A stretch of 20,395 nt of DNA. It comes from a virus. Position numbers and translations under genes: made by a program. The stretch covers positions 1 through 20,395 of IMG/VR virus record IMGVR_UViG_3300010392_001761, one strand, 5' to 3'. The notes under the pieces are model-generated. The model was not told the DNA's origin and made no database searches. It saw nothing but the letters and a program-made list of their open reading frames with translations. The number at the start of each line of letters is the position of its first letter. Position 1 is the stretch's first letter. Shown here in pieces: positions 1,682 to 16,557 of this stretch.

Positions 1682-1714
1682 GTCGTGAAACCGGACAATG
1701 TCCGCTTTGTTTAC
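1682..1714 (+). repeat. Dispersed palindrome copy 2, before C5 methyltransferase
   Basis: The core GGACAATGTCC is at 1693-1703. The right arm TGTCCGCTTTGTTTAC differs from the best copy at one base; the left arm keeps AAACCGGACA. It lies between the HNH gene and the C5 methyltransferase start, ten bases before that ATG, an operator-like position. The ATG inside the core (1698) is in frame with the methyltransferase and would add MSALFTGEH. Confidence 0.85.
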
Positions 1715-1724
1715 TGGGGAACAT

Positions 1725-2543
1725 ATGAATGAGTTATCACTGTTTACCGGAATTGGTGGTGGGTTGCTTGGAACCCGATTGCTCGGTTGGAAGCCCGTCT
1801 GCGGAGTGGAAAAAGAGTCGTATTGCCGAGAGGTGTTGCTCCGACGCCAGCGGGACGGTTTGCTGCCTTTGTTCCCAGTCTGGGACGACGTCCGAACATT
1901 CGATGGTAGACCGTGGCGTGGAATTGTGGATGTCGTCACTGCGGGATTCCCGTGTCAGCCATTCTCGGTTGCCGGAAAGCGAGACGGAGCGGACGACGAA
2001 CGGAATATGTGGCCCGAAACCATCCGGGTCATTCGCGAAGTGGGACCGCGATTCTGCTTGTTGGAAAACGTACCCGGCCTTATTCGATTCGATTATTTCG
2101 GCCAAATCCTCGGAGACTTGGCAGAGGCAGGGTTCGATGCGGAATGGGATGTTGTATCAGCGGAAGACGTTGGTGCGAACCATCTCAGGAAGCGGTTGTG
2201 GATTGTGGCCTACTCCGCGGGCCTCAAAACAAGGGCCGGACTTTGCGGCGACCGATCGACCGGGAGCAGGCGGGGACAATCTTCACACGGCAGTGGCGAA
2301 AGCGGAGAAGTTTCCGACGCCTTACGGGTTGAGTTCGAGCCAGGGGCAAGGGGATGGGGAATTCGGGAAGGCGATTCGAAACAGCACATCGATTGGTGGA
2401 CAACTGAACCCGCCTTGGGTCGAGTGGCTCATGGGGTGGCCAATCGGGTGGACCGGCTTGCAGCAATTGGAAACGGGCAAGTTCCGGCAGTGGTTAGAGC
2501 AGCATGGACTCTGATGAAAACCGGACAATGTCCGCTTTGTTGA
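1725..2543 (+). CDS. DNA (cytosine-5) methyltransferase
   Basis: Transfers a methyl group from S-adenosylmethionine to C5 of cytosine in DNA. In the 272-residue protein, motif I is LSLFTGIGGG (4-13), motif IV is GFPCQPFSVAG with catalytic Cys77, motif VI is LLENVPGL (112-119), and motif VIII is HLRKRLWIVAY (153-163). The C-terminal motif IX/X region runs RVDRLAAIGNGQVPAVV (241-257). The target-recognition region (about 165-220) is short and rich in Gly, Ser and Arg. ATG 1725 is chosen because GGGGA sits 5 bases upstream; an in-frame ATG at 1698 lies inside a palindrome and lacks a ribosome site. The last residues, KTGQCPLC and stop, are encoded by the next palindrome copy. No restriction endonuclease is visible beside it, so self-protection or regulation of phage DNA is likelier than a full restriction-modification pair. 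A second frame is open through the gene. Confidence 0.93.
   Translation: MNELSLFTGIGGGLLGTRLLGWKPVCGVEKESYCREVLLRRQRDGLLPLFPVWDDVRTFDGRPWRGIVDVVTAGFPCQPFSVAGKRDGADDERNMWPETIRVIREVGPRFCLLENVPGLIRFDYFGQILGDLAEAGFDAEWDVVSAEDVGANHLRKRLWIVAYSAGLKTRAGLCGDRSTGSRRGQSSHGSGESGEVSDALRVEFEPGARGWGIREGDSKQHIDWWTTEPALGRVAHGVANRVDRLAAIGNGQVPAVVRAAWTLMKTGQCPLC
1729..2514 (+). CDS. Putative overlapping gene inside the C5 methyltransferase (+1 frame)
   Basis: A 261-codon frame starts 4 bases after the methyltransferase ATG (ATGAATGAG gives both starts) and runs almost the full gene. Its second half contains FAKWDRDSACWKTYPALF (102-119), SETWQRQGSMRNGMLY (128-143), TLVRTISGSGCGLWPTPRAS (147-166) and LNPPWVEWLMGWPIGWT (226-242). 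These blocks match, from memory, a widespread set of phage proteins with WKT, SETWPRSGMMRNG, LWPTP and LNPxWVEWLMGWPxGWT motifs. The same DNA in the other frame gives the methyltransferase ENVPGL, LGDLAEAGFDAEW, HLRKRLWIVAY and WWTTEPALGRVAHGV motifs. The N-terminal 100 residues look less convincing and Cys/Ser-rich. It could be a genuine overprinted gene, or a shadow that databases have annotated repeatedly. No independent ribosome site is visible; starting would rely on the shared GGGGA or coupling. Confidence 0.45.
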   Translation: MSYHCLPELVVGCLEPDCSVGSPSAEWKKSRIAERCCSDASGTVCCLCSQSGTTSEHSMVDRGVELWMSSLRDSRVSHSRLPESETERTTNGICGPKPSGSFAKWDRDSACWKTYPALFDSIISAKSSETWQRQGSMRNGMLYQRKTLVRTISGSGCGLWPTPRASKQGPDFAATDRPGAGGDNLHTAVAKAEKFPTPYGLSSSQGQGDGEFGKAIRNSTSIGGQLNPPWVEWLMGWPIGWTGLQQLETGKFRQWLEQHGL

Positions 2544-2544
2544 C
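2512..2544 (+). repeat. Dispersed palindrome copy 3, overlapping methyltransferase stop
   Basis: The core GGACAATGTCC is at 2523-2533. The right arm TGTCCGCTTTGTTGAC (2529-2544) is complete and the left keeps AAACCGGACA. The copy contains the stop of the C5 methyltransferase (2541-2543) and begins on the stop of the overlapping frame (2512-2514). It sits 20 bases before the next gene start. Confidence 0.85.
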
Positions 2545-2563
2545 TGAGAGAAATGGGCGGCAT

Positions 2564-2734
2564 ATGGAATTGGTGTCACACTTGATCATTATGTTTAGTG
2601 TGGGGTTGTTGTTGACAGTTGTTGTTTGCAAGTGGACAATCCTGAAGGCGGGCCTGGTCTTTTTTGAATGGAACCGTGACAGATGGCTAGTGAGGACGCG
2701 ATCACATTTCCCGCATGGTTTCGGTGGACTCTGA
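2564..2734 (+). CDS. Small single-span membrane protein
   Basis: A 56-residue protein beginning MELVSHLIIMF, with one strong hydrophobic segment at about residues 5-27 and a basic, aromatic C-terminal tail (EWNRDRWLVRTRSHFPHGF). The ATG at 2564 is preceded by GGGCGG and, further off, GAGAG. In-frame ATGs at 2504 and 2529 fall inside the methyltransferase end and the palindrome and are less likely. The gene overlaps the next start by 52 bases, which is unusual. It is followed by three more small membrane proteins, so a lysis role (holin or holin regulator) is plausible, but no family is recognised. Confidence 0.5.
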   Translation: MELVSHLIIMFSVGLLLTVVVCKWTILKAGLVFFEWNRDRWLVRTRSHFPHGFGGL

Positions 2735-2949
2735 GTGTGGTTCTTCCGGGTGCGACTTTGTGGGCGACTTTTATCTCTGCTCAGGTGATGCAGATGTCTG
2801 ATATTCCTTCTGAGGTTGATGCTGCGAAGTCGAGGGCGTTATTGAATGCTCAGGACGTGAAGGTTCTCCAGGTGCAGCAGGAGGAGAACAAGCGGGTGCT
2901 CATTCGGATTGAGGACAAGATGGATGAGGCTTTGAAGTTGCTGAAATGA
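2683..2949 (+). CDS. Small membrane protein with C-terminal coiled coil, possible holin accessory
   Basis: An 88-residue protein. The hydrophobic segment WFRWTLSVVLPGATLWATF is at about residues 12-30. It is followed by a charged heptad-like helix from SEVDAAKSRALLNAQDV to MDEALKLLK. One membrane span plus a coiled coil recalls XhlA-type phage proteins, although in XhlA the order is reversed. The start overlaps the upstream ORF and has only a weak ribosome site. The stop overlaps the next start in an ATGA junction at 2946, so translation is probably coupled. The role is inferred from context only. Confidence 0.65.
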   Translation: MASEDAITFPAWFRWTLSVVLPGATLWATFISAQVMQMSDIPSEVDAAKSRALLNAQDVKVLQVQQEENKRVLIRIEDKMDEALKLLK

Positions 2950-3248
2950 GTGACTTCTTGATTCTGGCGTTGGTGGTCGCTCCGATTTATGCTTTGTATG
3001 TGTTTCGAGGTGATGAGATGGGAAAGATTCTTTCGACAGGCAAGAGCGAGTCGAAACCGTTCAGTTTGGACGGGACAGACTTGTGGAAGCTGTTTGTCGG
3101 CTGCTTTGTGGCGGGTTCCGGGGCTTTTCTGGCGACCTTCACTGAAAGCATCGGTGACATTGACTTCGGGGAGTGGACTCCTCATGTCACAGCTGGAGCG
3201 GCTGTTTTGGTCAATGTTCTGAGGAAGTTCTTGGCGGATAACACATGA
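2946..3248 (+). CDS. Holin-like small membrane protein
   Basis: A 100-residue protein with an N-terminal membrane span (DFLILALVVAPIYALYVF, about 3-20) and a short basic loop. A second hydrophobic stretch (LWKLFVGCFVAGSGAFLATF, about 46-65) follows, and the C-terminal region VTAGAAVLVNVLRKFLADN is weakly hydrophobic. Size, two or three spans and a charged C-terminus fit phage holins, which permeabilise the inner membrane at lysis. The ATGA junctions at both ends (2946 and 3245) tie it to its neighbours. I recognise no named holin family, so the call rests on topology and context. Confidence 0.6.
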   Translation: MSDFLILALVVAPIYALYVFRGDEMGKILSTGKSESKPFSLDGTDLWKLFVGCFVAGSGAFLATFTESIGDIDFGEWTPHVTAGAAVLVNVLRKFLADNT

Positions 3249-3664
3249 GTCAACCAACGAATCGTCAGATGATTGCTTCCCTGGGTTTGGCTGCGGCGAC
3301 GTTCGCTGTTTTGCCTTCGATGGGGTTCGTGAAGGGCCAACAGGCTCTTGTGCCTGGGACGTCGATTGAGCTTCCTGCGGAGTTCGCGAAGATTCTGTGG
3401 ACGATTCTCGCTGCGTTCCTTCCGGGATTGCTCAACAAGTGGGTTCCAGGTCTGGGTGATTGGGTGAAGAAACTCTTCGATCAGTTGTTGAAGGGGGGTG
3501 ATCAAATCTCTTCGGATACCCCGAAGCCTGGGGAGCAGATTGATTTGCTGTTGCGTGCGGTGGAACCCATTCGTGGTGATAGCGAAGCTGAGCAGGCAAT
3601 CGAAGACCTCGTTTGTAGGCTGCTGAAGTGCAAGAAAGATGGTGACCACACCCATGAGGTATAG
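3245..3664 (+). CDS. Unrecognised membrane-associated protein
   Basis: A 139-residue protein. It has an N-terminal hydrophobic segment (SLGLAAATFAVLPSMGF, about 12-28) and a second one, FAKILWTILAAFLPGLL (about 48-64). An amphipathic stretch (NKWVPGLGDWVKKLFDQLLKG) follows, then a soluble acidic C-terminal half. It starts in an ATGA overlap with the holin-like gene and ends inside the next gene. The middle resembles a phage holin of the short two-span type, but the long soluble tail is atypical. Probably part of the same membrane/lysis cassette. Confidence 0.6.
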   Translation: MSQPTNRQMIASLGLAAATFAVLPSMGFVKGQQALVPGTSIELPAEFAKILWTILAAFLPGLLNKWVPGLGDWVKKLFDQLLKGGDQISSDTPKPGEQIDLLLRAVEPIRGDSEAEQAIEDLVCRLLKCKKDGDHTHEV

Positions 3665-4013
3665 CCTACTATTGCTGGCGTCTTCCCTGGTTGGTTGTAT
3701 TCAGGACGGGGGTGGTGTTGAGCCGACGCCATCCCCGTCAGGGCCGTTGGAGAAGGCGGTTCAGAAGTCGAAGCAGTATCACCGGCTTTTGGGTGACCAA
3801 TTTCTTGAAGCCGGGAAAATGGTCGAGTCTGGCGAGATTACGACTGGCCGAGAAGCCCACAATTTCCTCTCCGAGCGGAATAAGGCGGCGAGGGACGCGG
3901 CTTTCAAGTTGGTGAATGAGTACATGCAGGATCGGATTGGGAATGGGAAGTGGTCGCGTGAATCGGCTGCGAAGGTTTATACAGAAATAGGACAAGGATT
4001 GAAAAATGAATAA
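3654..4013 (+). CDS. Small lipoprotein, possible outer-membrane spanin-like component
   Basis: A 119-residue protein with a typical lipoprotein signal: MRY, a Leu-rich core and the lipobox LVGC (Cys15), followed by a Pro/Ser/Thr linker (GGGVEPTPSPSGP). The mature part is helical and charged and ends in SAAKVYTEIGQGLKNE. ATG 3654 is chosen over 3639 because it gives the canonical signal peptide; GGTGA lies about ten bases upstream. It overlaps the upstream gene by 11 bases and the downstream gene by 8. Following three membrane proteins, it could be an o-spanin acting in outer-membrane disruption, but it is longer than usual o-spanins. A second partial copy of its C-terminus lies at 4265-4312. 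Confidence 0.75.
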   Translation: MRYSLLLLASSLVGCIQDGGGVEPTPSPSGPLEKAVQKSKQYHRLLGDQFLEAGKMVESGEITTGREAHNFLSERNKAARDAAFKLVNEYMQDRIGNGKWSRESAAKVYTEIGQGLKNE

Positions 4014-4248
4014 AGTTCAGATGCCGAAATACGTCTGTCACAAAGAAGTGTGGGCGTTGCAGATTCGAGACGTTGTAGGCACGCGACTCTTTTTTGATGA
4101 GGGGTATTCTGCACGTGACGTCGGTTCTGAATGGATTGACAGACATAAACCGGAGGTTGGTGGTTATTTCGTCCAGTACGAGGACAGATACACATCATTC
4201 AGCCCGCAAAAGCCTTTTGAGGAAGGTTATACTCTGAAAAATTCATAG
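4006..4248 (+). CDS. Small conserved phage protein of unknown function
   Basis: An 80-residue protein beginning MNKVQMPKYVCHKEVWALQI and ending GGYFVQYEDRYTSFSPQKPFEEGY. I recognise this pattern (KYxCHKxVWAL ... GGYxVxYEDGYxSxSPxxxFExGY) from many phage genomes, where it is annotated only as hypothetical. The start overlaps the lipoprotein stop (ATGAATAA). Its position, immediately followed by a second copy of the lipoprotein 3' end, suggests it was inserted there. No catalytic motif is visible. Confidence 0.8.
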   Translation: MNKVQMPKYVCHKEVWALQIRDVVGTRLFFDEGYSARDVGSEWIDRHKPEVGGYFVQYEDRYTSFSPQKPFEEGYTLKNS

Positions 4249-4281
4249 GAAGTGGGACCGGACAAAGTCCGCTTCTGTTTA
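4249..4281 (+). repeat. Dispersed palindrome copy 4 (degenerate)
   Basis: The core is GGACAAAGTCC at 4260-4270, with ACCGGACA to the left and GTCCGCTTCTGTTTAC to the right. The centre differs from the consensus and one base is inserted in the right arm. It lies in the 60-base gap after the small conserved protein and merges into the duplicated lipoprotein tail. Confidence 0.6.
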
Positions 4282-4312
4282 CCGCGAGATAGGCGAGGCT
4301 TTGAAGAAATGA
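4265..4312 (+). pseudogene. Duplicated C-terminal fragment of the lipoprotein gene
   Basis: This frame reads KSASVYREIGEALKK and then stop. It aligns with the true lipoprotein end ESAAKVYTEIGQGLKNE, sharing S, A, V, Y, E, I, G, L and K in register after one gap. The stop forms an ATGA junction with the mini-ORF at 4309, the kind of junction expected if the lipoprotein gene originally ended here. It therefore looks like the old 3' end, displaced when 4006-4248 was inserted. Confidence 0.55.
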
Positions 4313-4371
4313 GCATCGATGGCATTCTGTTGTTACTGCTGATTCTGTTCGTGGTGACTGGTGATAGATGA
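4309..4371 (+). CDS. 20-residue hydrophobic mini-protein
   Basis: Encodes MSIDGILLLLLILFVVTGDR and stop. It is essentially one short membrane span with an acidic N-terminal edge and a basic C-terminal end. The start sits in an ATGA overlap with the lipoprotein-tail fragment, and the stop region overlaps the next gene's GTG alternative start (4361). GAGG occurs 14-17 bases upstream and GAAGAA directly before the start. A small lysis or regulatory membrane peptide is possible, but it could also be a chance ORF. Confidence 0.4.
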   Translation: MSIDGILLLLLILFVVTGDR

Positions 4372-4381
4372 AAGGTTTCAA

Positions 4382-5005
4382 ATGTCAACTTTTTCAGCAA
4401 GTTACAGAATAAAGCAAAGTCTTAGAGGTTGCAGATTCAGGCCATCTCTTAAGTTGTGCTTGTTCGAGGAAGAGTACTGCCTGGACTTTTTCGGATTCCT
4501 GATCGCACTACCATTTCTCGACCGTTACCGTCGCAGTCCGCACGATATGATGGAGTCGTGGGGAGTCTACTATTACTATCGTGAGTTGTGGTTCTGCTGG
4601 GGGAAACACTCAAAATGCTTATATATGCCGTGGATGCTGAAACACATCAAATGCGAGGTTCTGCGTCCAGATGGATCGTGGGTTCCGTATATCGCCAGCT
4701 ACGAAGAAGGCGATGATGGACGGCGGGAAGAATCGTTTCCCTACACTTACAAGTTGAAATCCGGTGAAGTGCAAGAACGCACCGCAACTGTTTACGTCGA
4801 GCGGAGAGAGTGGCGTCAACGATGGTTGCAGTGGTGTCCGTTGTTCGCAACGCGGAGTCAGTCAATCGACGTTTCATTCGATGGCGAAGTTGGCGAGAGA
4901 ACTGGATCGTGGAAGGGCGGAACGATTGGTTGTGGTTATGAGATGCTTCCTGGAGAAACCGCCGAGCAGACTCTCCGAAGAATGGAACGCGAACGGAAAT
5001 TCTGA
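4382..5005 (+). CDS. Conserved phage protein of unknown function
   Basis: A 207-residue protein rich in aromatics and charge. Recognisable blocks are ALPFLDRYRRSPHDMMESWG, LYMPW, DGSWVPYIASYE, FPYTYKLKSGEVQERTATVY, VERREWRQRW, SWKGGTIGCGYEMLPGET and TLRRMERERKF. I know this set of blocks from many tailed-phage genomes, where the protein has no assigned role. ATG 4382 has AAAGG seven bases upstream; GTG 4361 is an alternative. It is followed directly by the papain-like gene (TGA then ATG). No signal peptide or membrane span is evident. Confidence 0.85.
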   Translation: MSTFSASYRIKQSLRGCRFRPSLKLCLFEEEYCLDFFGFLIALPFLDRYRRSPHDMMESWGVYYYYRELWFCWGKHSKCLYMPWMLKHIKCEVLRPDGSWVPYIASYEEGDDGRREESFPYTYKLKSGEVQERTATVYVERREWRQRWLQWCPLFATRSQSIDVSFDGEVGERTGSWKGGTIGCGYEMLPGETAEQTLRRMERERKF

Positions 5006-5818
5006 ATGAGCGAATTCACGGGATACCCGATTGAATTAGAGCAGCGAGCGGAGTTGGAGCAAGACGCGACCGACTTTCGCGACCTCGTTCGCGGTCTGTA
5101 TTCCGCACCCGAAGAGATTGATCCCCGTCCGTGGCACAAAATCGAGAATCAGGGTTCGATGGGAAGCTGCCAGGGCCATGCCTTGGCCTCGGTCTGCGAG
5201 ATGTCTTACCACATCGCGACGGGCGAAGTGACCCAGTTCTCGAACATCTTCGCGTACTTGGCGACGCAGAAGATTGACGGGTTGTTGGGAAGGGATTCCG
5301 GCAGCACGATCAACGGTGGCCGTAAGTGTGCTCAGCAGTATGGTATGTGTCCTTTGGAAGTATTTCCGTACCCGAACCCTGTGAGATATTCGTCGAGGAT
5401 TCCCGATGCAGCATGGTCCGCAGCCGAACCGTTCAGAATACGAAGTCATGCGTTTTGTCGCAATTACTCTGATGTGTATGATTATCTGGCCAGCGGACAG
5501 GGTGGCGTCGAGATCGGAATTTCCTGGGGTCTCCGACCAGACAATAATGGAGTCGTTGAGAGATTCACTACTGGAGGCGGTGGACATGCTGTGGCATTCC
5601 TCGGTTACTCGAAACGAGTGGATAGGGATGGAAGAAAATACCTCTGGCTCGCAAATTCCTGGTCGAGATCCTGGGGAAACAACGGATGGGCCGAAGTAGC
5701 TCCCAAGGTCGTCGATGATATGGGGAACCACAGATACACGGTGATGATCGGCTTATCGGATTTAACAACCCCGAAGCCGCGTCCGGTCGATTGGGTGAAG
5801 GAGAGCGTGTTCACATGA
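5006..5818 (+). CDS. Papain-family (C1) cysteine peptidase
   Basis: A 270-residue cysteine protease. The oxyanion Gln49 and catalytic Cys55 lie in ENQGSMGSCQGHALAS. The catalytic His194 is in GGGGHAVAFLGY, and Asn217 is in LWLANSWSRSWGNNGW, the NSW motif of papain-like enzymes. There is no signal peptide and no long propeptide, only about 45 residues before the domain, so it is probably cytoplasmic or virion-associated until lysis. It starts immediately after the previous stop and shares an ATGA junction with the next gene. Papain-like enzymes of this layout occur in several environmental phages. Possible roles are lysis of a protein-rich envelope, virion maturation, or attack on a host protein; the sequence alone does not decide. 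Papain-like virion proteases are not the usual capsid-maturation type. Confidence 0.9.
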   Translation: MSEFTGYPIELEQRAELEQDATDFRDLVRGLYSAPEEIDPRPWHKIENQGSMGSCQGHALASVCEMSYHIATGEVTQFSNIFAYLATQKIDGLLGRDSGSTINGGRKCAQQYGMCPLEVFPYPNPVRYSSRIPDAAWSAAEPFRIRSHAFCRNYSDVYDYLASGQGGVEIGISWGLRPDNNGVVERFTTGGGGHAVAFLGYSKRVDRDGRKYLWLANSWSRSWGNNGWAEVAPKVVDDMGNHRYTVMIGLSDLTTPKPRPVDWVKESVFT

Positions 5819-6486
5819 TAGAGCCATACTACCACGACGAGAAGTACGGCATCACGATTTACAACGCTGATTGCCGCGAAGTTCTGCCGCAGTTGGAGCC
5901 GGTGGATTTGGTGCTGACTGATCCTCCGTATGGGATTGGCGAACATGGGGGCAATTCAAGCAGAAGTAAACTGGCAAACGCTAGAGGGTATGGCGGTAGC
6001 GAGTGGGATAATGAAACAAAAGACAGCGAAGTGGAAATGTCGGTTTCCATTGCTCGGAACGCAATAGTATTCGGCGGAAATTATTACAACCTTGGAAAAT
6101 CGTCGTGCTGGCTCGTATGGGATAAAGATAACGGCGCAAATGATTTTGCCGATTGTGAGTTGGCGTGGACAAATCTGAAAAAAGCGGTGCGTAAGTTCAA
6201 ATGGCGATCTCAAGGAATGTTACAGGAACTTGGCGGGGCAAATAAGGAGACGAGACACCATCCGACGCAAAAGCCATTGGCATTGATGAAGTGGTGCATC
6301 AAGGAAGCGGGAGAACCGCAAACGATCATCGATCCTTTCATGGGCAGCGGCACAACCTTAGTGGCGGCGAAGCAATTAGGCCGAAAAGCAATCGGCATCG
6401 AGATTGAGGAGAAGTATTGCGAAATCGCGGTGGAGCGGTTGCGGCAGGGCGTGTTTCAGTTCGAGGAAGAAAGCGTGCTTGTATGA
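5815..6486 (+). CDS. Beta-class DNA methyltransferase (N6-adenine or N4-cytosine)
   Basis: A 223-residue enzyme that transfers a methyl group from S-adenosylmethionine to an exocyclic amino group. The catalytic motif IV is TDPPYG (35-40). The S-adenosylmethionine-binding motif I is DPFMGSGTT (173-181), preceded by HHPTQKP (148-154). Motif IV before motif I defines the beta order, as in many small phage enzymes. DPPYG is most often seen with adenine substrates, but N4-cytosine cannot be excluded. The target-recognition part is short. ATG 5815 is chosen for the ATGA overlap with the peptidase gene; an in-frame upstream GTG start at 5791 is unlikely. No restriction enzyme is nearby, so it appears to be an orphan enzyme, and the second DNA methyltransferase of this window. 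Confidence 0.92.
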   Translation: MIEPYYHDEKYGITIYNADCREVLPQLEPVDLVLTDPPYGIGEHGGNSSRSKLANARGYGGSEWDNETKDSEVEMSVSIARNAIVFGGNYYNLGKSSCWLVWDKDNGANDFADCELAWTNLKKAVRKFKWRSQGMLQELGGANKETRHHPTQKPLALMKWCIKEAGEPQTIIDPFMGSGTTLVAAKQLGRKAIGIEIEEKYCEIAVERLRQGVFQFEEESVLV

Positions 6487-6809
6487 AAGTCTACGGAACA
6501 AGTTACGATTCGGTTTCCGAAGCGGTAGTCGCCGAGAAGCGATACTACGGTGCGAAGGCGGACCTCGTTCGCGAAGTGACTCCGCACGTTCTCAACTGGA
6601 GATCGTCAACGGCGATGCAGTTCAATTCCGATGGGGTGAAGCGGCGGTCGGCGTACCGTTATGTCACCAATCGGGTACAACGACCATCCTTATTCCGCAA
6701 TCCGGTCCAATTCGCATTTTGGCCGATGATTATCCAGATGGTGATTCAACTGGTGCTCGACTGGCTCCAAAGCGATGAATCACTTCAATGGCGGGAGGCG
6801 AACCAATGA
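6483..6809 (+). CDS. Unrecognised small protein
   Basis: A 108-residue protein beginning MKVYGTSYDSVSEAVVAEKR. The N-terminal two thirds are basic and polar. A hydrophobic stretch, FAFWPMIIQMVIQLVLDWL (about 81-99), could span a membrane. ATG 6483 is chosen because it forms an ATGA junction with the methyltransferase stop, and the end forms another ATGA-type junction with the lipoprotein at 6806. No family is recognised. The coupling on both sides supports it being a real gene. Confidence 0.6.
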   Translation: MKVYGTSYDSVSEAVVAEKRYYGAKADLVREVTPHVLNWRSSTAMQFNSDGVKRRSAYRYVTNRVQRPSLFRNPVQFAFWPMIIQMVIQLVLDWLQSDESLQWREANQ

Positions 6810-7522
6810 GGTACTTGCTTATTTGCCTGTTGTTGGTTGGGTGCGTTCAAGCGTCGGCGGACGTTCCCGAACCGGAAGACCAGGTTGTGATCGTCATCCC
6901 GGACCCGCCGAAGCCGGAACCTAAGCCGGAACCGGACGGTGCTGCACCGGAAGAACCGCCGCCTCCTCCTGCCGTGGATTACGAGGATGTCTACGTTTAC
7001 GTGAGCGGACAATGTCCGGTGTGCGTCAGAATGTTCACTGATCTCGGAGTGAGTGGTGATTACTCGAAACCCGTCATCTACGAAGGATTCCGGTTCATTC
7101 CCGTGACGGAGACTCCCGCATTCGTGGGGGCCTTCCCGACAATCCATTTCAAATCACCAACTTCAAACACCGGGTGGAGGAGATTAGTCGGATGGGAGAG
7201 TTTCTCGAAGTTCAAGCAGAAGTACGACAAGGCTCAAGCGGTGCAGACGGTCGAGAAAGTTCCTGCGGAGCCAAAGGCATCATCCTACCAACTCCAGTTC
7301 GGGAGCCGGTCGATGTGGACGTACCCTGGCAGTATCCAGAATCACCTCCGAACGACTCATGGGTTTACTGCTGGGGAGTTGCGTGGCCTTTCTAGGCGTC
7401 AAATGGAACAACTCCACAGTAACGAGCACGAACGCGGCAATCCGCGACGTTCTTACGGTCGCCAAAAGCGGACAATGTCCGGTTTTTATCGTTCCTACTG
7501 CCCGACAGGTAGATGTCCATGA
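6806..7522 (+). CDS. Lipoprotein with thioredoxin/glutaredoxin-like CPVC domain
   Basis: A 238-residue protein. The signal MRYLLICLLLVGC has its lipobox Cys at 13. A long Pro/Glu/Lys linker runs to about residue 55. A thioredoxin-fold-like domain follows, with VYVYVSGQCPVC (CxxC, Cys70 and Cys73), a likely cis-Pro in AFPTIHF (Pro111) and GWRRLVGWESFSKF at the end. The C-terminal part contains HLRTTHGF ... LRGLSRRQMEQLHSNEH, a His-rich helical motif I recall from phage hypotheticals, and ends in CPTGRCP. It is predicted to sit on a membrane and act in thiol-disulfide exchange in the periplasm. The codons for SGQCPV are exactly a dispersed palindrome copy, and a second copy lies near the 3' end. 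ATGA junctions join it to both neighbours. Confidence 0.75.
   Translation: MRYLLICLLLVGCVQASADVPEPEDQVVIVIPDPPKPEPKPEPDGAAPEEPPPPPAVDYEDVYVYVSGQCPVCVRMFTDLGVSGDYSKPVIYEGFRFIPVTETPAFVGAFPTIHFKSPTSNTGWRRLVGWESFSKFKQKYDKAQAVQTVEKVPAEPKASSYQLQFGSRSMWTYPGSIQNHLRTTHGFTAGELRGLSRRQMEQLHSNEHERGNPRRSYGRQKRTMSGFYRSYCPTGRCP
6996..7028 (-). repeat. Dispersed palindrome copy 5, inside CPVC codons
   Basis: The core GGACAATGTCC is at 7007-7017. The flanks GC and GG are those of the reverse orientation relative to copies 1-4. It encodes the GQCP of the thioredoxin-like active site. The outer arms are not conserved here. Confidence 0.75.
7459..7491 (-). repeat. Dispersed palindrome copy 6
   Basis: AAGCGGACAATGTCCGGTTT with core at 7470-7480, in reverse orientation. 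It lies at the 3' end of the thioredoxin-like lipoprotein gene (read as RTMSG) and 39 bases before the G8-domain gene start. Confidence 0.8.
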
Positions 7523-9798
7523 GCTATTCCGAACTACAAGAGAACTTCACGAATCTTCGTGTCTCCCAAGCGACGGACGAGACTGAGATCAGCCTAATTC
7601 GTTCGCTCTGTTCGCAGAACGATTACGGAGATGCCCTCGAAGCCCGGATGCTTGACTATTGCGACAAGCGGCATCTCGATGGTGCGGAGATCGACGGGAT
7701 TCTCAAGGCGATTGCCGATGCTCAACAGCCTGATCCTGGTCCTGATCCCGACCCGCTTCCAGATTCCGATTGGTTGGGGCATGATTACATCCCGGACTTC
7801 GGGAAGTTTGACGGGGCGGTGGTTGTTGAAACTAATCAGGAGGTTCTTGCCCACGAAGCGATAACCCAAGAAATCGTTTCTGTTAAGGGGCGGTTGGACA
7901 TCTACGGAGCATTAAACGTCGGCACGCTCTTAATCTACCCCGGCGGCGAAGTCATCATGCACCCCGGCAGCAAGCTAATCATTCGCGACCTGCCGTTCTA
8001 TCCGTTCGAGAAAGACCCGAAGCGGTGGTCGAATGGGATTATCAATCTGGGGTACTTCGCGGATCACGGGACTGAGAAGACGCCGTTTGTGCGTGCTTAT
8101 TCAGACGTCAGAAAAGGGCATGACTCAATCCTTATGGAGACAACAGTTCTTCAAGGATGGAAAGTCGGTGATGAGATTCTCGTCCCAGACACGATCCAAG
8201 CAGTCTCCCAGCGCGGTAGACACATGCCGAACCAGAATGACGAAGTAAGGAAAATCACCGCCATTGAGAGAGGTATTGTCTCGTTTGACCGTCCTCTGGA
8301 TTACGACCATCCCGGATTCAGAGACGAACACACGGGCCTCGAACGCTTCCCCCACATATGCAACCTCACCCGCGACATCGTAATTCGCTCGGAGAACCCG
8401 AACGGCAACCGTGGCCATCTCGCGTGGCACATGCGGGGTTATGTCGATCTGCGATACACCGAATTCCGGGACATGGGGAGAACGAAGAATGACACCGACA
8501 CCGATGAAACCGTCATCGCTGAAGATGGCACTATCTTGTGGACTGCCACCAACCAGAGAGGGCGGTATCCAATCCACTCTCACCATTCCTTCGGCACTCC
8601 AGGGGGAAGAAGTGATTCTCCCTACCAGTCCACTATTTCCGGGTGCGTTGTTAGAGACTCCCCCTCATGGGGAATCACAATTCATGGTTCGCACTATATC
8701 CAGGTGAAGGACAATGTCCTATTCGGAAATACCGGTGCGGGCATCATGGAAGAGGACGGGACGGAGCACGCGAACGAAATCACCGAAAACGTCATCGTCG
8801 GGTGTCTGGGTCATGAGAAGCCGCAGTTCAAGCGAGTCGTGGAGTTCACGGACGGCACAAAATACCGTTGGGAAACCTTCGGCACGAACGGTTCAGGCGT
8901 GTGGATTACGCGGCAGAATTCCACCGTCAAGAATTGCTACACGTACTCCTCATCGGGCTACGGACTCTATCTGTCGGGTTATGGTTTCGGTTGGGAGTCG
9001 ATGGAACTGGCACTCGAACGCGGCAACCCAAACAAGACCCGCGTGAATGTCCAATGCGCGGCATCCTTCGGGCGCGAGATGGACGGCATCGAAGCGTGCA
9101 ACTGTCGCGGCCTGCTCTATTGGGCGTGGGACCAGGGACCGAACCACAAGTTCTACGAAGACGCCTGCATCGGAATGAAGGATGGAATCGTCGGGTGGAA
9201 TTGCTTCGGTGAACGCGGCGGCGTGCGGATGTATCACTCATCCAAAGCGACTGTCGGTAAGCTCTATCTCATCAACGATCCGGCGATTACCGCATTGGCG
9301 GAACGCACCGAACCGCTAGGTGGAGACTTCGGCACGACGTATGACCTTCAAGCGGTGATCAAATACTTCTACTGCTCCGGTTACGCCATCGGCTTGACGC
9401 CACCCACCAAGGGCAATAAAGCATTTCCGCACGCTCCGTTCTATGTCGAGTCGGGAGCGATTGATTGTCCAATCGGTGTGGCCTTCATGAATACCGAAGA
9501 CGGTGAAGTGGGCGACTCGCACATCACTGCCGAGTTTCTCAGTGGCACTCCAGTCCGCATGGATTGGAAGTACGACACGCAGAAGGTTCACGCACCGTTT
9601 GAGGAGTGCAAGCTGTTCGTGAACGGCTGGCGATATTGGTTCGACGTGCAATCGCCGGACTACATCCAACCGCCGGACGGCAAGGGCAAGCAAATCGTCA
9701 TCATCGACGGGGAGCGGGTGGATATTGTCGGCATGACTTCGCAAGAGGTGTACGACGAATACGGGGTGATTCTCGGCGGGGTGTTCAAGGATAGCTAA
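7519..9798 (+). CDS. G8-domain / right-handed beta-helix protein, probable polysaccharide-active phage protein
   Basis: A 759-residue protein. Roughly 1-70 is helical and of unknown function, and 70-85 is a Pro/Asp linker. From about 95 to 240 is a G8-like beta region, with GRLDIYGALNVGTLLIYPGG then GSKLIIRDLPF. From about 290 to 660 there is beta-helix sequence with TNQRGRYPIHSHHSFG (about 346-361), SPSWGITIHGSHYIQVKDN and NGSGVWITRQNSTVKNC. The arrangement recalls CEMIP/TMEM2-type proteins, which act on or bind hyaluronan. In phages, beta-helix proteins are typically tailspikes or depolymerases. ATG 7519 gives an ATGA overlap with the upstream stop; ATG 7513 is an alternative. The end shares a TAATG with the terminase. 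One palindrome copy lies inside. Catalysis is inferred, not shown, and a gene directly before the terminase is an unusual place for a tailspike. Confidence 0.78.
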   Translation: MSYSELQENFTNLRVSQATDETEISLIRSLCSQNDYGDALEARMLDYCDKRHLDGAEIDGILKAIADAQQPDPGPDPDPLPDSDWLGHDYIPDFGKFDGAVVVETNQEVLAHEAITQEIVSVKGRLDIYGALNVGTLLIYPGGEVIMHPGSKLIIRDLPFYPFEKDPKRWSNGIINLGYFADHGTEKTPFVRAYSDVRKGHDSILMETTVLQGWKVGDEILVPDTIQAVSQRGRHMPNQNDEVRKITAIERGIVSFDRPLDYDHPGFRDEHTGLERFPHICNLTRDIVIRSENPNGNRGHLAWHMRGYVDLRYTEFRDMGRTKNDTDTDETVIAEDGTILWTATNQRGRYPIHSHHSFGTPGGRSDSPYQSTISGCVVRDSPSWGITIHGSHYIQVKDNVLFGNTGAGIMEEDGTEHANEITENVIVGCLGHEKPQFKRVVEFTDGTKYRWETFGTNGSGVWITRQNSTVKNCYTYSSSGYGLYLSGYGFGWESMELALERGNPNKTRVNVQCAASFGREMDGIEACNCRGLLYWAWDQGPNHKFYEDACIGMKDGIVGWNCFGERGGVRMYHSSKATVGKLYLINDPAITALAERTEPLGGDFGTTYDLQAVIKYFYCSGYAIGLTPPTKGNKAFPHAPFYVESGAIDCPIGVAFMNTEDGEVGDSHITAEFLSGTPVRMDWKYDTQKVHAPFEECKLFVNGWRYWFDVQSPDYIQPPDGKGKQIVIIDGERVDIVGMTSQEVYDEYGVILGGVFKDS
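8698..8730 (+). repeat. Dispersed palindrome copy 7 (core only)
   Basis: The exact core GGACAATGTCC lies at 8709-8719 inside the G8/beta-helix gene, where it encodes DNVL. The outer arms are not conserved, so orientation cannot be assigned firmly. Confidence 0.6.
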
Positions 9799-11714
9799 TG
9801 CGGTTCCGCGTACCGAAAGACCCCACTGAAAACGTCGCATGGCGTATTCGCTGCCGTAAGAGAGCGATCGAGGACACGGAATTCCGCGACGTCTTCTATC
9901 AGGCTTGCATGGACGATGTTCTCTTTTTCTTCAACGCTGCCCTCTGGGTTTACGAACCGCGTGCGAAGATCAAGCGAAAGCCCTTCGTGACGTGGCCCCA
10001 TCAAGACCCCGTCATCATCAGGATGGAAGAAACCATCGACGAAGCGACGGAGAACGAGCACCCGATTTCGCTGACCGTTCCCAAGTCCCGCGCCCAAGGC
10101 GGAACTTACCTCTACCTTGGCGTGATGCTTCACCGGGCGTTTAAGGATTCCGGTTTCTCTGGCGGATTGGTCACACGGAACGAAGAACTGGTCGATTCCC
10201 GCACGGATGCCGATGCCGTGATGTTCAAGCTGGCGTGGATGATGGATCTTCTGCCTGCGTGGTTCCTTCCCAACCGGAAGAACCACAAGAAGGGATACGC
10301 CAGGAATTCGACCGAGCACACCATCGCCCTGCACAATGGGTCCGTGTTTTCCGGTTACGCGGCGACGGGAGACGTGGCGCGTGGTGGCCGTAAGACGATG
10401 TTCGCGTTCGACGAGCCTGGTTCAGAGGAATTCGTGTCGGGGAACAAAGACTTCAAGGTCATGTCCTCAGTTTCCCACGTCACGAACTGCACCATCTTGG
10501 TTTCGACGTTCGGAACGGACAATGGGGTGTTTTACGAGTCGGCGACCGATCCTGAGAACAACCGGGTGATTAAGCTGGACTGGAAGGATAACCCGGATCA
10601 TTCGCGAAATGCTTACCTGATCACGGACGGGAAGCCGGCATCAATTCGCCCTGAAGAAGCGGACAATGTCCGGTTTTACCTGGATGAGCACAAGCGGGAA
10701 TTGAAGCGGATCGAGCGACGTGGGCATAAGGTCGAGGGGAAGATTCGTTCGCCCTGGTACGATGCCCACTGTCTCATGCCGGGTGGTACTCCCCGATTCG
10801 TGGCCCGCGAATTGGACATGGACGCCCGCGGAGCCGTTGGGAAGCCGTTCGATGCCGAAATGCTAGACACCGTCCGCTTTCGGGACGTGAAAGCCCCGGT
10901 ATGGCAGGGAAAGCCCATCTTCGATTCGGAAACGCTGAAGCTGAAGGGTTTGATCGCGCGCAGCGACGGCCCTCTCAAGCTGTGGTTCAAGCCGGGAATC
11001 GACAATTCCGCACCGCTGGGTCCGTTTACCTTGGGCTGTGACATCGCGATGGGTGGCGAGACGGAATACTCTAGCAATTCGGTTGCGTGCGGCATCGACG
11101 ACAGGACGGGCGAGCAGGTCTTGGAGTACACGATCAGGGGAATGCAGTCGATCATCTTCGCTCAGAACGTGCTGGGCCTTTGTCTCTGGCTGAGGAATGC
11201 CCTGCTTGGTTGGGAAGATTCGGGCGTGTCGGGTCCGTTCGCGAAGGAGATCATGGAAACCCGCTGCTACGGGAATGTGTATTACCGAGAAGTCGCTGAG
11301 ATCGGTTCCCGCAAGAAGTCGAGGAAGGCGGGTTGGGCGAATACGAAGACCGACGACAAGGCGAATCTGTTCGAGAATATGGGCATCGCGATGGCGTCGG
11401 GCGAATTCGTGGTCCGCAGCGATGATCTGGTGCGTGAATGCGGCGAATACGAGTGGGAGAACGGCAAAATCGTTCACAGGCCGACCAAGAATGTTAGCGG
11501 AGATGAGAAGGCTCACGGCGACCGTTGCATAGCTGCTGGGGTGGCTTGGCTGGTCTACGACGAGGAGAAAACGGGAAAATCCGTTGACAGTTCAGAGGAA
11601 AGCGGTGAAACTGCCGAATATGGGAGCTTCCTGTGGCGTGAGCAACAGGAAAAGCGGAGAACAAGGTCATCAAGTCCCAGTTTCAGCATACGCGACCTTT
11701 TGCACATGGAGTAA
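9798..11714 (+). CDS. terL: Terminase large subunit
   Basis: A 638-residue DNA-packaging motor and nuclease. The ATPase half has a Walker A-like VPKSRAQGGTY (94-104), then GGLVTRNEELVDSRTDADA. A Walker B, MFAFDEPGSEEF (201-212), follows with acidic residues Asp205 and Glu206. The nuclease half begins at LGCDIAMGGETEYSSN (Asp415 as the first metal ligand), a typical RNase H-fold start. The closing SDDLVRECGEYEWENGKIVH region matches terminase C-termini. The length is normal for phage large terminases. The start shares its A with the previous stop (TAATG). No small subunit could be identified next to it; upstream is the G8 protein and downstream are micro-ORFs. A palindrome copy lies at 10661-10671, encoding DNVRF. 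Confidence 0.93.
   Translation: MRFRVPKDPTENVAWRIRCRKRAIEDTEFRDVFYQACMDDVLFFFNAALWVYEPRAKIKRKPFVTWPHQDPVIIRMEETIDEATENEHPISLTVPKSRAQGGTYLYLGVMLHRAFKDSGFSGGLVTRNEELVDSRTDADAVMFKLAWMMDLLPAWFLPNRKNHKKGYARNSTEHTIALHNGSVFSGYAATGDVARGGRKTMFAFDEPGSEEFVSGNKDFKVMSSVSHVTNCTILVSTFGTDNGVFYESATDPENNRVIKLDWKDNPDHSRNAYLITDGKPASIRPEEADNVRFYLDEHKRELKRIERRGHKVEGKIRSPWYDAHCLMPGGTPRFVARELDMDARGAVGKPFDAEMLDTVRFRDVKAPVWQGKPIFDSETLKLKGLIARSDGPLKLWFKPGIDNSAPLGPFTLGCDIAMGGETEYSSNSVACGIDDRTGEQVLEYTIRGMQSIIFAQNVLGLCLWLRNALLGWEDSGVSGPFAKEIMETRCYGNVYYREVAEIGSRKKSRKAGWANTKTDDKANLFENMGIAMASGEFVVRSDDLVRECGEYEWENGKIVHRPTKNVSGDEKAHGDRCIAAGVAWLVYDEEKTGKSVDSSEESGETAEYGSFLWREQQEKRRTRSSSPSFSIRDLLHME
10650..10682 (-). repeat. Dispersed palindrome copy 8, inside terminase gene
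   Basis: AAGCGGACAATGTCCGGTTT, core 10661-10671, in reverse orientation and identical over 20 bases to copy 6. It is read as ADNVRF in the large terminase, a different codon phase from copies 5 and 6. Confidence 0.8.
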
Positions 11715-11740
11715 AACCGGACAATGCCCTCTTTTTCGGA
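11708..11740 (+). repeat. Dispersed palindrome copy 9 (one mismatch)
   Basis: AAAACCGGACAATGCCCTCT, core 11719-11729, with one mismatch in the right half. It begins just before the terminase stop and contains the ATG of the following micro-ORF. The stretch 11714-11752 resembles 11835-11873, so palindrome and flank seem to have been duplicated together. Confidence 0.65.
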
Positions 11741-11903
11741 ATCAGAACTCATTGATTACATAAATCGCAGGCACGAAAAATGCCGCAGCGAAGTGTGTGA
11801 TTTTGTGGAAGAATACTTCTTTGGTTGTGAAGAAGAACCGGACAATGTCCTCATTTCGGAGTTAGAACCCGATGGACGAGAAGAAGATGGAAGCCGCAAT
11901 TAA
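11724..11903 (+). CDS. 59-residue acidic micro-ORF
   Basis: Begins MPSFSESELIDYINRRHEKC and ends in an acidic tail (ELEPDGREEDGSRN). Its ATG is the centre of a palindrome copy, and no ribosome site is visible, so initiation would be unusual. The C-terminal part, EPDNVLISELEPD, is encoded by the next palindrome copy and flank. It lies between terminase and portal and overlaps the next micro-ORF in another frame. No family is recognised. Real translation is uncertain. Confidence 0.35.
   Translation: MPSFSESELIDYINRRHEKCRSEVCDFVEEYFFGCEEEPDNVLISELEPDGREEDGSRN
11829..11861 (+). repeat. Dispersed palindrome copy 10
   Basis: The core GGACAATGTCC is at 11840-11850, preceded by AACC as in the + orientation copies. 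It lies 21 bases before the second micro-ORF start. The downstream flank repeats that of copy 9 imperfectly (TTTCGGA, then AGAACTC versus AGAACCC). Confidence 0.75.
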
Positions 11904-12021
11904 CAGATGCCTGGACAAAGTCGAGGCGAATGCGGCGAGAGAAGACGCAGCCCTGAAGTTTTCGCAAGCGGTCCTTAATCTGGCCCACGCGAAAGAGAAG
12001 TTGAAGAGTATTGAAAAATAG
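11872..12021 (+). CDS. 49-residue helical micro-protein
   Basis: Begins MDEKKMEAAINRCLDKVEAN and ends HAKEKLKSIEK. The whole chain is predicted to be one or two charged amphipathic helices, as in small phage coiled-coil proteins. It overlaps the upstream micro-ORF by 32 bases in a different frame. The ATG at 11872 has only weak purine-rich sequence upstream. Function unknown. Of the two micro-ORFs this is the more protein-like. Confidence 0.5.
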   Translation: MDEKKMEAAINRCLDKVEANAAREDAALKFSQAVLNLAHAKEKLKSIEK

Positions 12022-12099
12022 AGGGGCTGGCTTTTGCCGGTTCCAATTGGCACAAGCGGATTGATCCCCGCCGAGATGCCTCAATTCATCGACGCCTAT

Positions 12100-12130
12100 G
12101 AGGGGGTGGCGAAAGCCTCCCTCTTTTTAT
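12100..12130 (+). terminator. Intrinsic terminator before the portal gene
   Basis: GAGGG (12100-12104) pairs with CCCTC (12119-12123), and GGC pairs with GCC around a GAAA tetraloop, with a small internal bulge. It is followed directly by TTTTTATTT. This is a good Rho-independent terminator shape, closing a ~120-base region without a convincing gene. Confidence 0.7.
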
Positions 12131-12142
12131 TTGGCGTCAAGC

Positions 12143-13921
12143 ATGATCGACCTGAAAGACAAAGAGAAACGCGGTCGTCTTCTCAAGGCGATTAAGACTT
12201 CGCGAGAAGCGTTGCAGCCGTTTCGCCGCGTTCGCAAGCAGTTGATCAAGGATTACGTCGGTTCCTGGTACTCTGAATCCGGGTCCGACAACAAGGTTCT
12301 TGTCAATCTGATGAATCAGACCGCCAGGATCTACACGATCGCTCTGGCGGCGAATCGTCCGCAAGTTCTGGTTTCCACGCCGCGGGAACACAATATCCCG
12401 TTCGCCCGACGCTTCGAGGTGAACCTGAACAAGCTGATCGCGGACATGAACCTGGACCAGACGTTCCGGGCGATTGTTCTCGACGCATTCTTCTGCCTGG
12501 GCTGCGGAGTCGTGATGATGCGCGACACCGACACCCGCTTCCACGGTCTGCTCGAATCAGAGGAAGACGTGTGGCTCGACCTGGGGGAACCCTGGTTCAA
12601 CCGTGTCGCTCTGGATGATCTGATCCTGGACATGAGCGCCAGGGAGCTTTCCAAGATGCGGTACTGCGGTCACCGCTACCGGGCTGATTACGAAAAGGTG
12701 ATGGACGAGCCTGGGTATTCCAAGGCGGTGAAGGACAAGCTGAAGCCCACCAGCCGACAGCAGAAGGAAACCGAAGGGTCCGGTCGAGACGTCGCCACGG
12801 GAGACGGCTGGGTAGAGGATGACGACCTCAAGGACATGATCTGGCTCCAGGACGTCTGGGTTGCTGAGAACAACAGCATTGCGACGATGGCCTGTGACGA
12901 AGACCTTCCCCCGCTGATCGAGCGGGAATGGAAGGGTTCTCAGGCGGGACCGTACAAGTTCCTCTCCCTGGGAAGCGTTCCCGACAACATTATTCCTGCT
13001 TCTCCTGCTGTAAACCTGAAGGGGATGCACGACCTCCAGAACCGTCTTCATAGACGTATGGAAGCGGATTCGGACGCCCACCGCGTGGTGAACGTCTATC
13101 CCCCGCAAGAAGCGGACTTTGCCGAGAGAGTGAGGACTGCGGAGCGGAATAGCTGGGTCAACGGTCGATCACCGGAGCAGATCAAGCAGTTTGAAGTGGG
13201 CGGTATCGACCAGCGCGACATGGCTCTGGCGACGTTCATTCAGGACGAATACGACCGCTTCGCCGGAAACCTTCAAGCGATGGGAGGACTTGGTCCGCAA
13301 GCGGCGACGGTCGGGCAAGAGGAATTGATCCACGGGGCTGTTTCGCGGAACGAGGCCGACATGCGAATGGCGGTGGTCGGTTTCGCTTCTGACTGCATTC
13401 TCGATCTTGGGAGGTTGATGTGGGAGGACCAGACTCTTGAGATCCAGTCGTCGATGGAGATCGGAAACTCAGGAATTGAGGTTTCTTCTGACTGGATTCC
13501 TGGTCATAGGGACGGTCAGTTCGAGGAATACGAGTTCAAGGTCGAACCGTACTCGATGGTCTTCAAGACCCCCGAACAGAAGCTCCAAGAGTTATTCCAG
13601 GTCTTGCAGCAACTCACCCCGCTATGGCCGTTGTTCCAGGCATCCGGCGCTACTCTGGACGCACAGGCGATCGTGGAAGAAATCGCACGTCTGAAGAATC
13701 GACCGGAATTCAAGCGGTTCATCACGTTCGCTGATCCCATGATGATGATGGGCGACCAGAACAGCGGCGGATCACATTCGACGACGGAGAACGTGCGAAG
13801 GAACATTCCCACGGGAGGAACGCAAGAGGCACGTTCCAACGCGATGATTCAATCTTTGATGGGCGGTGGTTCACAGGTGAACGGACAGATGGCAGCAGCA
13901 ATGGGAAGGAGTCCCGCATGA
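12143..13921 (+). CDS. Portal protein
   Basis: A 592-residue protein. The N-terminal half has the look of large portal proteins: a basic helical start, then DYVGSWYSESGSDNKVLVNL, AANRPQVLVST, a mostly alpha/beta central part (ALDDLILDMSARELSKMRY), and GSVPDNIIPASPAVNLKGMHDLQNRLHRRM. The C-terminal half has the long helical region and a Gln/Met-rich tail (MIQSLMGGGSQVNGQMAAAM). It forms the ring at the capsid vertex through which DNA enters and leaves. The position, after the terminase and before the scaffold and capsid genes, supports the call. ATG 12143 is chosen because the in-frame ATG at 12098 lies in the terminator stem. No clear ribosome site precedes 12143. The stop overlaps the next start as ATGA. 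Confidence 0.85.
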   Translation: MIDLKDKEKRGRLLKAIKTSREALQPFRRVRKQLIKDYVGSWYSESGSDNKVLVNLMNQTARIYTIALAANRPQVLVSTPREHNIPFARRFEVNLNKLIADMNLDQTFRAIVLDAFFCLGCGVVMMRDTDTRFHGLLESEEDVWLDLGEPWFNRVALDDLILDMSARELSKMRYCGHRYRADYEKVMDEPGYSKAVKDKLKPTSRQQKETEGSGRDVATGDGWVEDDDLKDMIWLQDVWVAENNSIATMACDEDLPPLIEREWKGSQAGPYKFLSLGSVPDNIIPASPAVNLKGMHDLQNRLHRRMEADSDAHRVVNVYPPQEADFAERVRTAERNSWVNGRSPEQIKQFEVGGIDQRDMALATFIQDEYDRFAGNLQAMGGLGPQAATVGQEELIHGAVSRNEADMRMAVVGFASDCILDLGRLMWEDQTLEIQSSMEIGNSGIEVSSDWIPGHRDGQFEEYEFKVEPYSMVFKTPEQKLQELFQVLQQLTPLWPLFQASGATLDAQAIVEEIARLKNRPEFKRFITFADPMMMMGDQNSGGSHSTTENVRRNIPTGGTQEARSNAMIQSLMGGGSQVNGQMAAAMGRSPA

Positions 13922-14229
13922 AGTACATCATCAACGGGAAAGAAGTCAGTCGGAAGGAATTCCTGAAACGCAAGAAAAGCGATAACTGGCTCGAAGGCGG
14001 ACGTCTTCCGCTTCCCAATACCTACCGCGATCACGACCCCCTGATTTCAGACGGCATCGGCTGCATGAAGAACCAGGTGGGCGAGATGCGGGAAACGATT
14101 CGCAAACACAACATCAAGGGCGTCACTGTACGGGACAGTGGGCAATTGGAAATCACAAGTCGGCAAGGACGGCGTGAACTGCTCAAGGTTCGCGGTCTTG
14201 CAGACGCAGATGCCGGGTTTGGCGACTAG
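13918..14229 (+). CDS. Conserved phage protein between portal and scaffold genes
   Basis: A 103-residue protein beginning MKYIINGKEVSRKEFLKRKK. It carries LISDGIGCMKNQVGEMRETI, HNIKGVTVRDSGQLEITSRQ and GRRELLKVRGLADADAGFGD. I recognise this pattern (IxGKEV ... SxGxGxxKxQVxEMRExIxxHxIxGVxVxDxGQxEITSRxGRRELLKxRG) from other phages, always beside the portal gene and without known function. The start forms an ATGA overlap with the portal stop. No membrane span is evident. Confidence 0.85.
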   Translation: MKYIINGKEVSRKEFLKRKKSDNWLEGGRLPLPNTYRDHDPLISDGIGCMKNQVGEMRETIRKHNIKGVTVRDSGQLEITSRQGRRELLKVRGLADADAGFGD

Positions 14230-14323
14230 CACGAAACATTGCACGAAAGATGCACGAATTATTCTTTCGTGCTGCACGATTTATAAGGCGTTATGCGGCA
14301 TTGGTTTAACGCTGCACGATTTA
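14229..14323 (+). repeat. Cluster of GCACGA repeats with a hairpin
   Basis: GCACGA occurs at 14229, 14241, 14252, 14274 and 14314, and inverted (TCGTGC) at 14267. GCACGAAAGA (14241-14250) and TCTTTCGTGC (14263-14272) form a perfect 10-base inverted repeat with a 12-base loop. GCTGCACGATTTA (13 bases) is repeated exactly at 14271 and 14311, 40 bases apart. The cluster fills the gap before the scaffold gene, whose ribosome site GGAGA follows. It may bind a regulator or act as a transcript hairpin. There is no U-run, so it is not a clear terminator. Confidence 0.75.
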
Positions 14324-14336
14324 ATCGGAGAACCTG

Positions 14337-15332: not shown

Positions 15333-15349
15333 CTTCATAAGGAGTAACA

Positions 15350-16456: not shown

Positions 16457-16466
16457 GAACTTCGCA

Positions 16467-16500: not shown

Positions 16501-16557
16501 CAGGGACAACGCCCACCCTTGGCTGGGTAATCCCGCTTTTTTGAAAAGGATAGAGAA

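Follow-up and report, generated by a model that had tools for sequence, protein, structure and literature searches.

A CEMIP/TMEM2-type beta-helix protein encoded directly ahead of the large terminase gene in a metagenomic phage

INTRODUCTION

Why does a phage carry, directly in front of its large terminase gene, a relative of TMEM2 and CEMIP? The question is raised by IMG/VR virus record IMGVR_UViG_3300010392_001761, a linear fragment of 20,395 bases that was analysed in its entirety (hereafter the window) and that comes from a phage represented by metagenome sequences only. An open reading frame (ORF) at 7513–9798 encodes a protein of 761 amino acids (aa), which a preliminary description had likened to CEMIP and TMEM2. 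We find that residues ~88–759 correspond to a right-handed beta-helix of the CEMIP/TMEM2 type. The conservation of its residues makes an enzymatic nature highly probable, and we propose, giving the proposal an even chance, that the enzyme cuts a (probably acidic) polysaccharide of the host envelope or slime, acting late with a CPxC protein and a peptidase. TMEM2 and CEMIP play a central part in hyaluronan turnover; nevertheless, in the available text of two reports their catalysis is disputed and their active site unassigned (PMC10206443, PMC10474455).

RESULTS

Family membership and predicted fold

The protein and its parts are as follows; L173 is one of its two closest viral relatives.

7513–9798 (start at 7513 or 7519), plus strand: CEMIP/TMEM2-type beta-helix protein, 761 aa (ORF list, Pfam, AlphaFold2, Foldseek, VIA-align, profile)
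7513–7710, plus strand: N-terminal helical stretch, residues 1–66, low model confidence, no relative found (AlphaFold2 model, searches)
7711–7785, plus strand: disordered Pro/Asp-rich linker, residues 67–91 (AlphaFold2 model)
7792–8127, plus strand: divergent G8-like region, residues ~94–205, first ~30 residues missing compared with L173 (hhalign, Pfam matches of relatives)
8557–8973, plus strand: CEMIP beta-helix core PF24606, residues 349–487 (Pfam, E = 1.3e-18)
8563–8586, plus strand: RYPIHSHH, residues 351–358, with invariant Y352, H355 and H357 (alignment)
8683–8766, plus strand: invariant H391 and E414 and near-invariant E418, candidate active site with Y352/H355/H357 (alignment)

The Pfam model CEMIP_beta-hel (PF24606) scores the protein at 67.9 bits against a cut-off of 27.3, which places it in the family. 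The NosD and Beta_helix models match more weakly, and PADLOC and NCBIfam scans gave nothing beyond a parallel beta-helix repeat. TMEM2 (PDB 8c6i) was found by phmmer at E = 3e-4, and a profile of 42 relatives compared with the PDB had TMEM2 as its sole match (E = 5e-31). The only tailspike-family sequence match was a weak one (phrog_2234, tail spike, E = 0.064), and the family profile matched neither tailspike depolymerases nor alginate epimerases at E ≤ 10.

An AlphaFold2 model built with 42 alignment rows reached a predicted local distance difference test score (pLDDT) of 79 and a predicted template modelling score of 0.83, with ten-residue pLDDT means mostly >85 over residues 101–420. When the model was compared with the PDB using Foldseek, TMEM2 was the top match (E = 5e-12), followed by phage depolymerases. 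VIA-align matched residues 88–759 of the model to the TMEM2 ectodomain fold (Z = 22.4, root-mean-square deviation 3.9 over 522 residues), with AlgG next at Z = 19.4 and tailspikes at about 15–18. Tailspike depolymerases (Klebsiella K1 lyase 7w1c, Sf6, LKA1) and AlgG/AlgE4 have the same overall right-handed beta-helix, with about 8–15% identity to the window protein over the fold; identity to TMEM2 is 18%. A beta-helix is shared by many proteins, and what sets TMEM2 apart from the other fold matches is the sequence evidence. Both the likeness to CEMIP/TMEM2 and the long beta-helix that had been read from the letters are borne out, the former by structural comparison together with the phmmer and profile matches, the latter by the agreement of Pfam, the TMEM2 profile match and the predicted fold.

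Position 7519 is the second in-frame ATG of the ORF, so that either 7513 or 7519 may be its start. A second record, L002, covers window positions 5079–15655 (a 10.6-kb overlap) with 20 differences, none of them in the CEMIP-like ORF or the gene preceding it, and represents the same phage. Because the two copies are identical over the gene, the ORF is unlikely to be an accident of assembly.

Invariant residues and candidate active site

Conservation was read from an alignment of 97 rows, 15 viral and 82 bacterial. Y352, H302, H355, H357, H391, E414 and G322 are identical in all 97 rows, E418 and R287 are kept in 96 and R351 in 95. The bacterial loci had been collected with two peptide patterns, one of which contained R351, Y352 and H355 and biases the counts for these residues; H302, H357, H391, E414 and E418 lie outside both patterns. 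All 15 viral rows have Y352, H302, H355, H357, H391 and E414, and 14 of them have E418. The motif RYPIHSHH, singled out in the preliminary description, was located at residues 351–358 and contains three of these positions.

The set Y352, H355, H357, H391, E414 and E418, as defined from this alignment, is intact in the window protein, and TMEM2 keeps the same Y/H/H/H/E/E residues at 8c6i positions 465, 468, 470, 503, 526 and 530 (hand-counted from the alignments). Each of the predicted strands 354–359, 388–391 and 411–413 has H355/H357, H391 or E414, respectively, within it or at its end, one per coil; such a placement would be expected of a groove and is taken from the strand list rather than from coordinates. 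Since TMEM2 shares them, the six residues are put forward as a candidate active site of the family, for which none has been assigned. The spacing Y-x2-[DH]-x-H is presumably the same in AlgE4 and AlgG, an active-site homology that we treat as a lead only. In the available part of the TMEM2 report, its authors were unable to assign an active site (PMC10206443).

G8 region, lectin-like domain and N-terminus

TMEM2 and CEMIP (KIAA1199/HYBID) carry a G8 region at the start of the beta-helix, and the window protein probably has a divergent counterpart, recognisable through its relatives. The Pfam G8 model (PF10162) does not match it at E ≤ 1, nor at E ≤ 10. The same model gives strong matches to the relatives L009 and L094 and weak ones to L010 and L090, and hhalign aligned the G8 regions of L009, L094 and L010 with the corresponding window region at E = 1.1e-7, or 4.6e-15 when L173 was added. 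Compared with L173, the first ~30 residues of the region are absent, and the Pfam model misses the window protein because this start is lost. The earlier assignment of a G8 region is therefore retained for a divergent G8-like segment, inferred from aligned relatives and profile comparison, while a complete G8 is not present. As stated in the accessible text on TMEM2, G8 belongs to the continuous beta-helix and is no separate domain (PMC10206443).

The lectin-like domain 1 that is inserted in TMEM2 (chain 165–336) was skipped in the profile alignment and has no counterpart there. An arginine of this domain (CEMIP R187, TMEM2 R265) is needed for hyaluronan degradation, according to the part of the source at hand (PMC10206443). 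The association with hyaluronan breakdown that came with the CEMIP/TMEM2 likeness is thus not supported, and hyaluronan should not be assumed as the substrate.

The window protein also differs from TMEM2 in having no transmembrane or signal-like segment, as judged by crude hydropathy. The closest relatives, L172/L173, are 42% identical over window residues 88–758; they possess a complete G8 start and a signal-like N-terminus, whereas the window protein has an 87-residue extension. Relatives of the N-terminal stretch were sought across phages and none was found, the stretch being unique to this phage in all searches; it may or may not be the anchoring or chaperone domain suggested in the preliminary description.

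Viral and bacterial relatives

Viral labels of the relatives were taken from IMG/VR records, whose contigs may include bacterial DNA. By crude hydropathy, eight of the 15 viral members have a signal-like N-terminus, among them the closest relative and L090, which belongs to the same phage lineage as the window; a ninth, L013, has one from an inner start, and the window protein, L009, L010, L011, L014 and L016 have none. The signal-like N-termini point to export rather than virion assembly.

Homologues are widespread in bacteria (78 loci). Bacterial G8 proteins (from Acidobacteriota, Nitrosomonas, Planctomycetota and roseobacters) share the core and the invariant residues of the window protein, their identity to it not exceeding about 42% over a part of that core. 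The window protein and L173 form a separate pair with full support and a long stem, a deep branch apart from all bacterial rows. On a quick tree the viral label requires six changes, at least three of them forced by starred branches, which suggests that phages probably acquired such genes more than once. Two separate acquisitions within the lineage of this phage (the window copy and that of L090/G034) were considered; the copies lie far apart on the tree, and an approximately unbiased test keeps a single clade possible (p = 0.257), so that we do not claim them.

Three tblastn probes (window, L094 and L011) of 50,697 phage records returned no full-length family member. The cultured Curvibacter phage PCA1 was rejected as a CEMIP phage, having a weak G8 match only (E = 0.0075) and no RYxxHxH; its G8-like protein (981 aa, L191 305–3250) lies directly after a tail-fibre gene. 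In the literature as far as it was accessible, 'G8 domain' with 'phage' led only to depolymerase papers without that term and to human or animal CEMIP/TMEM2 papers, and none was found joining 'G8 domain-containing' with exopolysaccharide. On Roseobacter plasmids, G8-type proteins lie by glycosyltransferases (L005, L008) or family-16 glycosylhydrolases (L004, L005), and that of L005 carries a type I secretion target.

Genomic setting and partner gene

The neighbouring genes are listed below.

232–747, plus strand: lineage-conserved protein, usually just before the large terminase in relatives; small terminase would be a guess (lineage comparison)
1698–2543, plus strand: C5 cytosine DNA methylase (Pfam search)
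2504–4013, plus strand: cluster of small membrane-segment proteins, one with a lipobox, possibly lysis-like (ORFs, hydropathy)
4361–5005, plus strand: Acb3-family inhibitor of the cyclic oligonucleotide-based antiphage signalling system (CBASS) (Pfam PF25187, E = 4e-50)
5006–5818, plus strand: papain-like C1 peptidase; an Alicyclobacillus phage MMB025 protein annotated as endolysin matches it distantly (Pfam)
5791–6486, plus strand: N4/N6 DNA methylase (Pfam, PHROG-type match)
6788–7522, plus strand: lipobox protein with a CPVC motif and a C-terminal LH..HE...YCPT region; partner gene as in L172/L173
9798–11714, plus strand: large terminase
12098–13921, plus strand: portal protein
15350–16456, plus strand: probable major capsid protein, most conserved of the lineage (from place and conservation)

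The CEMIP-like ORF overlaps the large-terminase gene by one base, which confirms the position directly before it. A related terminase occurs in 65 further viral (metagenomic) loci, in which terminase, portal, small gene, scaffold-like gene and capsid-like gene follow one another in the same order. The module at 9798–17406, from terminase through portal to capsid, represents a lineage without a close relative in the phage collection, and the portal gave zero matches in 50,697 phage records. The region ahead of the terminase is variable among relatives. Homologues of ORF 232–747 start 0.6–2.9 kb before the terminase in 12 of 17 tabulated loci and 4.8–10 kb before it in the other five; in the window the distance is 9.6 kb. 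The ORFs at 2504–5818, 6417–6809 and 6788–7522 had no homologue at E ≤ 1e-4 among the lineage loci compared. The search for further CEMIP-like copies in the lineage covered 41 of the 65 loci and gave one (G034, L090); it encodes 704 aa with a signal-like start and lies downstream of the capsid-like gene. In the window, the CEMIP-like gene sits at an accessory position, among accessory and lysis-like genes in a stretch that varies in relatives, and the preliminary description was right to find this an odd location for a tailspike. The membrane and lipobox genes, together with the papain-like peptidase, look like a lysis or envelope module.

The gene directly before the CEMIP-like ORF has a counterpart in L172/L173, where the CEMIP-like gene also lies directly behind that of an exported CPPC protein (thioredoxin PHROG match, E = 0.0018). 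The CPxC proteins of the window and of L172/L173 share a C-terminal LS..E..LH..HE...YCPT region (BLAST E = 0.001); a regular expression for this region matched no other ORF in the collected loci. Structure prediction for the partner protein, from a two-sequence alignment, gave a pLDDT of 38. The CPPC gene of L172/L173 is itself preceded by one whose product, an HExxH peptidase, weakly resembles matrixins (Pfam M10, E = 0.004, below cut-off). The L172/L173 contigs encode a head maturation protease, a virion structural protein and a tape measure protein, and in the stretch examined they have no homologues of the terminase, portal and capsid of this phage. A disulfide-bonded planctomycete wall was considered as the target of the CPxC protein; the literature available gave this idea no support and it stays speculative. 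Planctomycetes do possess peptidoglycan, as reported in the accessible part of one paper (PMC4432640).

Host

A capsid profile matched one of 392 Planctomycetota genomes (E = 4e-60) and one of 288 Verrucomicrobiota genomes (E = 7e-33), and none of 398 Pseudomonadota or 297 Acidobacteriota genomes, the phylum of each genome sample being inferred from the named locus used as its centre. In both positive genomes (L188, L190), terminase, portal and capsid lie in the same order as in the window, with 25–31% identity, making these distant prophage relatives of the lineage. In the Verrucomicrobiota genome the capsid gene occurs twice, at a distance of 51 kb. Exact capsid peptides, searched in 84,980 species genomes, found no integrated relative. 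The probable host is a member of the Planctomycetota-Verrucomicrobiota group, but the relatives are distant and few.

Mode of action

How would such a protein serve the phage? We propose that the enzyme would cut a probably acidic polysaccharide of the host envelope or slime, and that it would act late, alongside the papain-like peptidase and the exported CPxC protein of the neighbouring gene. Jointly they would open the envelope and free the progeny from the matrix, in a manner unlike that of a classical tailspike. Catalysis is likely in view of the invariant residues, whose retention in the viral rows argues that enzymatic function has been kept. The Roseobacter relatives placed by glycosyltransferase or family-16 glycosylhydrolase genes also speak for the proposal. 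A purely structural, non-catalytic beta-helix would be in keeping with one study, in whose available text the TMEM2 ectodomain has no hyaluronidase activity (PMC10206443); such a role would not explain six residues unchanged in 97 of 97 rows (Y352, H302, H355, H357, H391 and E414), and we regard it as very improbable. As for timing, late release of the enzyme seems to us evenly poised. Several points weigh against our proposal. A signal-like N-terminus and a transmembrane segment are both missing from the window protein, and its extra N-terminal stretch would also fit a virion anchor. The L090 copy sits between capsid and tail-like genes, and the copies of L012, L016 and L175 lie, by eye, among tail-like genes. 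The link to the partner gene comes from two phages with a weak pairwise score (E = 0.001), and a wider search found no further copy. TMEM2's own catalysis is disputed, since it is reported as active in the accessible text of another study (PMC10474455 against PMC10206443).

Some of these points bear on attachment to the virion, in which the N-terminal helices and linker would fix the enzyme to the tail and polysaccharide would be cleared at entry. The N-terminal stretch is the strongest point for this mode: with its linker it would resemble anchor-linker-enzyme layouts. In addition, the protein lacks a signal-like N-terminus, phage depolymerases come next after TMEM2 in Foldseek, and in phage PCA1 a G8-like protein, albeit without the catalytic motif, follows a tail-fibre gene. 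On the other side, phage virion anchors are usually common to several phages, whereas the searches across phages gave this stretch no relative; in the closest relative a signal-like N-terminus stands in its place, and the gene lies before the terminase amid lysis-like and anti-defence genes, outside the tail module. We therefore consider a tail-attached mode possible, if somewhat doubtful, and an ordinary tailspike gene is not favoured, in view of where the gene lies and of the signal-like N-termini found in most relatives. Alternatively, the gene could be an accessory one, taken from a bacterium and serving the infected host, for instance by modifying that host's extracellular polysaccharide; it would then play no part in entry or lysis. 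The many bacterial homologues (some within polysaccharide gene clusters), the anti-CBASS and methylase genes nearby and the single copy among 41 other lineage records would fit this; against it, the deep window/L173 branch and a partner gene kept in, and seen only in, these phages suggest long residence in phages, and we hold it to be unlikely. Returning to the late-acting enzyme, a bolder form of the proposal is that phages of the Planctomycetota-Verrucomicrobiota group recruited CEMIP-type enzymes into a three-part module, completed by a peptidase and an exported CPxC redox protein, which would dissolve a protein- and polysaccharide-rich envelope, and that the active site, shared with TMEM2, would be Y-x2-H-x-H together with an H and E...E farther along, on coils of the helix that follow one another; we rate this as rather doubtful.

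The family itself is known. What is new is the presence of CEMIP-type enzymes in phages, in this case with the start of G8 lost, extra residues at the N-terminus and a partner gene that recurs. Phages may thus have one more enzyme family with which to handle host polysaccharide. Having no lectin domain, the phage and bacterial branch is compact, with few invariant residues, and offers a simpler protein for testing the chemistry of the family.

Other observations

Relatives of the Acb3-family protein were seen in 52 phage records, from Vibrio, Sulfitobacter, Thalassomonas, Caulobacter and Synechococcus phages; the window copy lies near two methylases. The accessible literature yielded no paper linking Acb3 with CBASS. 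Downstream of the capsid-like gene, positions 17973–19229 encode a long Ser/Pro repeat protein (PSSSPSSS), and similar repeats occur in L090.

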